Source: 'Osedax' symbiont bacterium Rs2_46_30_T18 (lineage in GTDB: Bacteria; Pseudomonadota; Gammaproteobacteria; Pseudomonadales; Balneatricaceae). From it: 51,014 nucleotides of DNA. Shown here in pieces: positions 39,849 through 48,083 of this stretch (the stretch's first letter is position 1; every line of letters begins with the position of its first letter). The notes below the pieces were generated by a model. The model did no database searches, was not told the origin of the DNA, and saw only the letters and a program-made list of their open reading frames with translations. Location of the stretch: assembly GCA_002163025.1 (NCBI GenBank), contig MABF01000180.1:1-51014 (forward strand). Direction: 5' to 3'. A program made the translations under genes and the position numbers.

Positions 39849-41321
<1,473 letters not shown>

Positions 41322-41329
41322 ATACATTA

Positions 41330-41362
41330 ACTTCAGCTATAGCAAGTTGCTATAGCTGAAGT
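41330..41362. terminator. Perfect 14-bp hairpin between purB and the M14-type gene
   Basis: ACTTCAGCTATAGC (41330-41343) and GCTATAGCTGAAGT (41349-41362) pair perfectly around a 5-nt loop. It begins 8 nt after the purB stop and ends 29 nt before the convergent gene's stop. No T-run is present on either strand, so it may terminate weakly or protect 3' ends. Confidence 0.6.
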
Positions 41363-46374: not shown

Positions 46375-47478
46375 CTAGTCAATATAGAGTTCAAAGTCCT
46401 GCTCTGCGACCGACTCGCCATTTATCAAGATAATTAATCGCTGGATCCCGCAATAGTAACGCCGGGTGCTTATCGCTTTGATATAGTGCTGCTTGTGTAA
46501 GGTCACTTGCTCACCCGCAGCTAACTGCAAATTTTTAAACTTAAATACTTTATTTTTTTGCTGACCATTGGCTTTGACCAGTGCCAGTGCAAAATCCAAC
46601 ACCATACCTTGCTGCTGATCTGCACAGGACTGAACCGTCACAGAAAAGTTGATTGCCTCACCTAACTGTATTACAGAGTTCGACAACGTCAAATTCGTCA
46701 CTTTACACTGTGGCAAACTCGTATAGCCCAAAAGCGGATATACATCCGGGTGACCATTTTTAACCAGCGTCCTGGTTGCGTGCTTAATTATCCACTGCAC
46801 TTCACTAGACGCCCCTTTAAGCCAGCGCTGACAAGTGTCTATCACTAGCTGTGGGTGATCTTTCGCGATGTCGTTTAAATGGTTTGCAACGGAGCGTCGC
46901 ACATACAAACTAGGATCATCTTTTAAACGTTGCAATAGCGGTATATTAACTTGCGGAGATTTCACAAATGACCTCAATTGCATTCCCCATGGCAGTTTTG
47001 GTCGAGTGCCCTCCGATACCAAGCGGCGTACGTTTTCATCTCCACTTTCAACCCACTGAGTAAAATATTGCTGACACAGTTGCGGATATTTTACAATGAA
47101 AGGACGAACGGCAAATTCCGCTGAAAAGAGCCCGGTTAAATATTTAAGCAGTGGCAATGAAATATCCGGATGCTCTAATCCATACTTAGCAACATAATCG
47201 ACTATCGGCCATGCGGCGAAAGATTGCAGAGGATCATTTTTGTCGCCCGTTACCCATACATCTTTTACCTTGGATAACAACATTGCACATTCACTAAAAT
47301 CTTGCGGAAGGTGCTGTGCCATTATTTCAATCAAGTGCTCGACCCGCTGCTTCAATTCAAGCTGATCTATCCCCTGCTGCGCCTGCACCCTAAACTGCTC
47401 TGAGCTAAATCCTGGTAACAATTGATCCAAACTAGCTGCAATGCGCGCAATGGCACTACTACTTAATGCATTTTTCAT
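46375..47478 (-). CDS. alkC: AlkC-type DNA alkylation repair glycosylase
   Basis: The 367-aa protein consists of an alpha-helical HEAT-like repeat domain (about 1-255; FAVRPFIVKYPQLCQQYFTQ near 121, DDPSLYVRRSVANHLNDIAK near 190) followed by a beta-rich region (about 262-367, GEAINFSVTVQSC...). This matches the AlkC subgroup that carries a C-terminal immunoglobulin-like domain. AlkC removes 3-methyladenine and 3-methylcytosine without flipping the base out. It is divergent from the NYN gene; a perfect palindrome lies in the shared promoter region. Confidence 0.87.
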   Translation of the reverse strand: MKNALSSSAIARIAASLDQLLPGFSSEQFRVQAQQGIDQLELKQRVEHLIEIMAQHLPQDFSECAMLLSKVKDVWVTGDKNDPLQSFAAWPIVDYVAKYGLEHPDISLPLLKYLTGLFSAEFAVRPFIVKYPQLCQQYFTQWVESGDENVRRLVSEGTRPKLPWGMQLRSFVKSPQVNIPLLQRLKDDPSLYVRRSVANHLNDIAKDHPQLVIDTCQRWLKGASSEVQWIIKHATRTLVKNGHPDVYPLLGYTSLPQCKVTNLTLSNSVIQLGEAINFSVTVQSCADQQQGMVLDFALALVKANGQQKNKVFKFKNLQLAAGEQVTLHKQHYIKAISTRRYYCGIQRLIILINGESVAEQDFELYID

Positions 47479-47520
47479 TTGTTGATATTCTCTTCACAAA
47501 AAAAATAGTATATTGCCAAG

Positions 47521-47542
47521 CTACTGACAGATCTGTCAGTAG
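47521..47542. promoter_or_regulatory. Perfect 22-bp palindrome between alkC and NYN gene
   Basis: The half-site CTACTGACAGA (47521-47531) is followed directly by its exact reverse complement (47532-47542). It overlaps the -35 region of a rightward promoter (CTGACA 47524-47529, N17, TACTTT 47547-47552) and lies close to a leftward TATACT at 47507-47512. Length, symmetry and position fit a TetR-type operator. No TetR gene is in the window. Confidence 0.7.
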
Positions 47543-47609: not shown

Positions 47610-48083
47610 ATGGAAAAAATTGCAATTTTTGTCGATGTGCAAAACATTTACTACACAACCCGCCAGGCATACAGGGGTCAATTTAACTATCGCCGCTTCT
47701 GGGAGTCAATCAACGCTAATGCACAAATAATCACAGCAATTGCCTATGCCATTGATAGTGGCGACAGCGGTCAACATAAATTTCAAACGGCTTTGAAACA
47801 TATCGGCTTCCAGGTAAAACTAAAGCCTTATATCCAGCGCGCAGACGGATCTGCCAAAGGGGATTGGGATGTGGGCATTACAATAGACATTTTGGAAACA
47901 GCCGCTACTGTCGATAAAGTTGTACTGCTGTCCGGAGACGGTGACTTTGCAATATTATTGGACAGGATTTCATCTATACACAAAGTGAACACGGCAGTTT
48001 ATGCTGTCCCTCAACTTACCGCTAAATCACTAATCGATGCCTGTGATCAATTTCACGCTATCACTGACGACGATTTATTATAG
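47610..48083 (+). CDS. NYN-domain protein (LabA/DUF88 family)
   Basis: The 157-aa protein is a PIN-like NYN domain. The acidic catalytic set is visible as FVDVQNIYY near residue 7, DWDVGITIDILE near 86 and LLSGDGDFAILLDRI near 106. Family members are presumed metal-dependent RNases. ATG 47610 matches the family N-terminus; the open frame extends upstream through the promoter and palindrome. It is divergent from alkC and shares the palindrome region, so both may answer to one repressor. Target RNA unknown. Confidence 0.87.
   Translation: MEKIAIFVDVQNIYYTTRQAYRGQFNYRRFWESINANAQIITAIAYAIDSGDSGQHKFQTALKHIGFQVKLKPYIQRADGSAKGDWDVGITIDILETAATVDKVVLLSGDGDFAILLDRISSIHKVNTAVYAVPQLTAKSLIDACDQFHAITDDDLL

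Follow-up and report, generated by a model that had tools for sequence, protein, structure and literature searches.

Palindrome in the gap between alkC and an NYN gene

A perfect palindrome between two divergently transcribed genes poses the question of which gene it serves and what kind of protein reads it. The window analysed here, a 51,014-nt stretch of DNA from the 'Osedax' symbiont bacterium Rs2_46_30_T18, contains only one perfect even palindrome of 18 bp or longer, the 22-bp CTACTGACAGATCTGTCAGTAG, which is present exactly at positions 47521–47542, as a sequence-only reading of the window had claimed. Perfect 22-mer palindromes are expected by chance about 0.013–0.017 times per window, and this one is not easily explained by chance. 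It is located between the start of alkC (47478, minus strand) and the ATG of the NYN gene (47610), at distances of 42 nt and 67 nt, respectively. The alkC gene (46375–47478, minus strand), the presumed target, encodes a 367-aa alkylpurine DNA glycosylase. The protein is alike to AlkC of PDB 5vhv/5vi0 over residues 8–364 (E 4e-66), in a comparison of the proteins and not of their regulation, and the DNA glycosylase recognized in the earlier reading is confirmed as AlkC. The divergent neighbour (47610–48083, plus strand) encodes a 157-aa protein of the NYN family, again as claimed (PF01936, E 1e-39; PDB 2qip, VPA0982, E 7.5e-55).

The window's longest inverted repeat with perfect arms is another element, with 16-bp arms at 41330–41345 and 41347–41362 around a 1-nt centre. 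It directly follows the stop of a 490-aa ORF (39849–41321), which we take to resemble adenylosuccinate lyase, and lies between convergent genes. Because of this position just past an ORF stop and between convergent genes, the repeat may be a terminator-like end element.

The palindrome follows alkC

The NYN gene is present in six of the seven genomes of the genus, including the window's own assembly (G000; 4.02 Mb, 365 contigs, 94.84% complete), and alkC adjoins it in four of them (G000, G003, G005 and G006). Co-occurrence of the palindrome with the alkC–NYN gap, to which the sequence-only reading had pointed, holds in three of these four gaps, the window's own included: the spacer is GATC in G000, CAGA in G006 and a different 4-nt sequence in G005, where one end of the site has a mismatch. 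It fails in G003, where the gap has only an eroded version of the site. G001 and G004, with NYN in the same place and no alkC, have no site, the best match at spacers of 4–6 nt showing 6 mismatches. Outside the genus, the NYN signature was absent around alkC in 13 loci of at most about 4 kb, some of them cut by contig ends, which were inspected by eye and with short signatures. In G061, a copy with a 5-nt spacer is located 50 nt upstream of the alkC start, and alkC has no NYN neighbour there. Because loci with NYN alone lack the site and the G061 alkC gene has the site without NYN, the palindrome goes with alkC and not with NYN. The proposed link of the two genes through the palindrome is therefore not sustained. 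Neither is a switch shared by both, because a correctly spaced -10 is found on the alkC side only. The NYN gene is probably outside the circuit.

A dispersed motif with a variable spacer

The motif CTACTGACA-N(4,5,6)-TGTCAGTAG is dispersed, and the palindrome is one of its copies. The window copy, a proposed site for a WYL regulator as judged from its sequence and its motif family, reads CTACTGACA-GATC-TGTCAGTAG (9-4-9; 47521–47542, no strand). The half-site of 11 bp described earlier has to be shortened, because conservation among related sites extends over the outer 9 bp of each arm, around a spacer of 4, 5 or 6 nt. The spacer is self-complementary in one of 40 sites, and the palindromy of the GATC centre is accidental. 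Three copies with exact arms are present in the own assembly, all upstream of genes and not scattered away from promoters. One precedes alkC, the second precedes a gene that we assign to the DUF1801 family (no Pfam or NCBIfam match at E <= 0.001), and the third, with a 5-nt spacer, precedes a small, apparently secreted gene that we take to be ABM-like (no Pfam match).

Searches with a fixed spacing alone made the site seem restricted to few genes. The promoters of the DUF1801-like gene have spacers of 4 nt (G000 and G002), 5 nt (G005) and 6 nt (G003, with 2 mismatches), and the last two prompted a variable-spacer search, which revealed the regulator described below. This search matched 23 of 116 family genomes, compared with 3 of 116 for a reversed-pattern control. 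The spacer is 4–6 nt in 22 of the 23; G100, with a spacer of 2, was left out, three matches with a spacer of 0 were ignored, and the match in G042 sits inside an ORF. An N4 search with 2 mismatches allowed was no better than the reversed-pattern control (14 and 13 of 116 genomes, respectively), and N4 matches with 3 mismatches were likewise at control level. The case therefore rests on exact or near-exact arms. The fetched family loci contain 26 distinct exact-arm sites (N4–6). Each of these precedes a gene, and in 25 TAnnnT occurs 7–8 nt from the site on the gene side, one of the 25 having it on both sides. The earlier description of the palindrome as operator-like is borne out by this promoter association of the exact-arm copies.

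The motif is also found in related genomes before genes for GFA (PF04828), GST (PF17172) and glyoxalase (PF00903) as well as an operon for an ABM-like protein and an HTH_11-WYL regulator; a further GFA-like target in G002 is named by eye only. The motif is probably a DNA switch common to marine gammaproteobacteria, placed before alkylation-repair and several detoxification genes. In G003, the glyoxalase promoter, the motif and the start codon occur twice, 759 bp apart (L103, C60: 3633–3656 and 4392–4415), which looks like a partial tandem duplication.

An exact N4 scan of the genome contig collection gave 20 stretches. Three belong to this system: a single Oceanospirillaceae MAG contributes two and the Osedax symbiont Rs2 the third. 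The other 17, from Lactococcus and other groups, were inspected by eye, and several are terminator-like or lie in coding sequence. Exact CTACTGACA-N4-TGTCAGTAG occurs in six Lactococcus loci (L005, L006, L007, L013, L015 and L020), with T runs after four of the six; the copies with T runs are probably terminators.

The arms can fold as a stem of 8–9 bp (z about -3) with a loop of 4–6 nt, as would suit an RNA hairpin in an attenuator or leader, or a REP-like mobile palindrome, whose stem is kept while the loop varies. However, an arm change without compensation is seen in 14 of 40 sites, and in 3 both arms are changed alike, indicating that base identity rather than pairing is kept. Furthermore, the site is upstream of the presumed -10, and the three exact-arm copies of the own assembly have flanks that are unlike by eye. 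A hairpin or REP element, rejected as the main reading on account of the uncompensated arm changes, is thus highly improbable. The window copy also contains CTG-N10-CAG, as expected of a lux box for a LuxR-type regulator. This reading has next to no probability and was rejected, because PF03472 (Autoind_bind) is found in none of the seven genomes of the genus, whereas the E. coli control was found, and because the spacing of a lux box is lost in the N5 and N6 copies.

Link with an HTH_11-WYL regulator

The earlier reading placed the regulator in trans, and indeed no candidate regulator gene adjoins the palindrome. Most copies with a 6-nt spacer precede a two-gene operon encoding an ABM-like protein of about 106 aa and a 225–242 aa protein of the HTH_11-WYL kind, for which YafY is presumably the name. 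One such protein of 226 aa was tested and matched WYL (PF13280, E 2e-18) and HTH_11 (PF08279, E 3.5e-17). Its closest solved structures by sequence are PafBC, DriD and other WYL proteins, CapW being a weaker match. Orthologs of the regulator at E <= 1e-60 are present in 23 of 116 family genomes, and in all 23 the motif (up to 3 mismatches, N5 or N6) is upstream of the regulator. Site and regulator are both present in 18 genomes, the site alone in 4, the regulator alone in 5 and neither in 89 (Fisher p 3.6e-13, indicative only since the genomes are related). With exact arms only, the counts are 15, 4, 8 and 89 (p 5e-10, indicative for the same reason), and without the in-ORF match of G042 the p value of the former comparison is 4.7e-12.

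These data bear on the TetR-type regulator suggested by the sequence-only reading. The 9-4-9 dyad is a common TetR layout and fits an operator for TetR or another unrelated dimer, one TetR-like ORF is found 1.7 kb away from the DUF1801 site of G005 (L106), and the exact N4 copies of Lactococcus L015 and L020 are about 80–100 nt before a TetR-like ORF. However, the latter two copies have A- and T-runs like terminators, the spacer varies from 4 to 6 nt, and ORF lists inspected by eye show no TetR-like ORF next to the family sites. The motif instead co-occurs with an HTH_11-WYL regulator and fronts its operon, and a TetR-type operator is quite improbable.

An ortholog of the WYL regulator is absent from the own 94.84%-complete assembly, where the best matches, at 33% and 27% identity, come from open frames of 347 and 252 aa and look like paralogs. 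The neighbour gene of the operon is found in G001, G002, G003 and G005 and was not found in the own assembly, in a search whose empty answer is uninformative. The regulator region has likely been lost in the gaps of the own assembly; alternatively, a paralog may read the sites in G000 and G004, the latter having a site at GST and no regulator ortholog. Sites but no intact ortholog are found in G078, where the frame is split, and in G086, where the gene has diverged and its frame is broken; G003 has both the regulator and alkC with the alkC site eroded. The G078 regulator is split over two frames (L086, C2 1966–2525), and its perfect upstream motif is kept. In the regulator operon of G006, a GFA-like gene, named by eye, is located between the ABM-like and WYL genes (L117, C6 491–2178), which ties GFA directly to the regulator.

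Promoter architecture

The -10-like hexamer of the alkC promoter is TATACT (47507–47512, minus strand), which is kept in four congeneric alkC promoters. It is separated from the palindrome by an 8-nt spacer (47513–47520, minus strand), whose length is kept and whose sequence is not. The overlap with promoter elements claimed earlier needs correction: matches from a generic scan (3, with 0.9 expected) are unconvincing, whereas TATACT 8 nt away is supported by comparison.

This comparison used 40 aligned promoters, 18 of target copies and 22 of regulator operons, chosen before the -10 was inspected. The set includes two VOC copies of G003, one of which ('lipo?') is a duplicate of the other. It omits the eroded G003 alkC site, the G042 operon (near-identical to that of G044), the broken or diverged regulators of G078 and G086, the matches inside ORFs (G042 C5 and G044 C35), the G044 C3 match beside a small ORF, and G014 together with other sites having 2–3 mismatches. 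All -10 calls were made by sequence only. TAnnnT occurs 8 nt from the site on the gene side in 33 of 40 promoters and on the opposite side in one, while any other offset from 0 to 29 gives at most 8 of 40. At 7 or 8 nt, TAnnnT is found in 36 of 40 and strictly missing in 4, and the looser nAnnnT is found in all 40 on the gene side, compared with 8 of 40 on the opposite side. Because all 40 of the 8-nt spacers (N8) differ, recent descent alone does not account for the constant spacing.

No -35 was found at spacers of 16–18 nt, where the best match to TTGACA averages 2.05 of 6, compared with 2.56 for random hexamers. In the six sites with a 4-nt spacer, CTGACA matches the -35 at 5 of 6 positions, but it is 21 nt from the -10, too far for a usual promoter. 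If the hexamer is taken as -12 to -7, the proximal TGTCAGTAG half-site falls at roughly -29 to -21. The spacer within the site is 4 or 5 nt in 14 of 18 target copies, compared with 6 nt in 19 of 22 regulator operons, the remaining 3 of which have 5 nt. Two marks of a WYL activator site are thus found: a fixed distance to the presumed -10 together with a poor -35, and an HTH-WYL operon that itself carries the site (23/23), belonging to a regulator not found in the own assembly.

The same WYL regulator and site could also act in repression, as with BrxR, if a bound dimer blocked RNA polymerase until a signal released it. The site overlaps the core promoter, the regulator operon bears the site like many autorepressed operons, and BrxR is a WYL regulator that represses (PMC9122601). 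However, a repressor does not need fixed phasing, yet nAnnnT lies 7–8 nt away throughout the aligned set. A -35 at the usual spacing is missing, and PafBC and DriD, among the closest solved structures, are activators, CapW being a weaker match. Repression is thus possible but rather unlikely.

Proposed model for activation of alkC

The palindrome is likely an activator-type site for a homodimeric WYL regulator that acts on alkC. Activation is favoured because the layout resembles the published PafBC and DriD promoters. A homodimeric HTH_11-WYL factor, acting in trans, would bind the palindrome; in related genomes, the operon for the ABM-like and WYL proteins would encode this factor while bearing the same site. 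The whole site would cover the place of the missing -35, with one TGTCAGTAG half-site near the -10. Because the site occupies this position, the activated regulator is proposed to recruit RNA polymerase to the -35-less alkC promoter, as DriD, SiwR and PafBC do. The same regulator may switch on the GFA, GST, glyoxalase, DUF1801-like and ABM-like genes and its own operon. The motif itself, where it occurs, its constant spacing from the -10-like hexamer and its link to the regulator operon were observed directly, and from them we infer binding, the dimer state, activation rather than repression and an inducing signal. The variation of the spacer from 4 to 6 nt is unusual for a rigid dimer and counts against the WYL model.

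A more speculative and tentative extension is that TGTCAGT(AG)-N8-TAnnnT might be an ancient WYL promoter code, shared by the actinobacterial PafBC and a gammaproteobacterial homodimer. It would run a non-SOS, non-Ada response to alkylation and electrophiles, with AlkC induced together with glutathione and glyoxalase enzymes, in an order set by the spacer length.

A literature search found no account of this regulon, of this operator or of alkC as a WYL target, and nothing on what controls AlkC in these bacteria; the present model predicts such a controller. With this model, the lone palindrome becomes part of a defined regulon that has a candidate regulator, and other genomes can be searched with its promoter rule. 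Furthermore, a gammaproteobacterial counterpart, tied to detoxification of reactive electrophiles, is suggested for the promoter layout used by mycobacterial DNA-damage activators.

Comparison with known WYL systems

The kind of system proposed here is already known from DriD, SiwR and PafBC, which are compared below. DriD, a homodimeric WYL activator of Caulobacter, aligns with the regulator over HTH-WYL residues 2–222 (E 2e-8). Its site, ATACGAC(X)7GTCGTAT, overlaps the -35 and stands at one distance from the -10, as does the motif described here, and both are palindromic, with a core of GAC-(X)7-GTC in DriD and GAC-(6–8)-GTC here (PMC12340889). However, DriD is longer (chains of 331–347 residues, compared with the 226-aa protein), the outer bases of the half-site differ and, unlike in DriD, the regulator operon carries the site.

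PafBC of mycobacteria is a WYL regulator of DNA repair genes and is positioned between the promoter DNA and the -35-reading sigma domain (PMC5656591, PMC6789036, PMC11804915). Its promoter, tTGTCRgtg-8 nt-TannnT (PMC5656591), resembles that of alkC in having the half-site TGTCRGT followed by TAnnnT about 8 nt on. In contrast, PafBC is a heterodimer from another phylum with a non-palindromic motif, in which TGTC stands at a distance of 16 from TAnnnT, compared with 17 here. Membership of the alkC promoter in the RecA-NDp (PafBC) class was rejected: TGTCAGT and TAnnnT are present, at a distance that is one longer and in a site that is palindromic.

SiwR of Mycobacterium smegmatis is likewise a WYL activator. 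Its palindrome lies directly upstream of the -10, and it depends on the -26 region (PMC10693628); PafBC also uses the '-26' position (PMC11804915). With the hexamer taken as -12 to -7, the proximal half-site of the alkC promoter would correspond to this position. SiwR differs in its 19-bp imperfect palindrome with a conserved GGA core and in targeting DinB-like genes. In some Actinobacteria, siwR adjoins a glyoxalase-like gene (PMC10693628), and glyoxalases are among the genes of the regulon proposed here.
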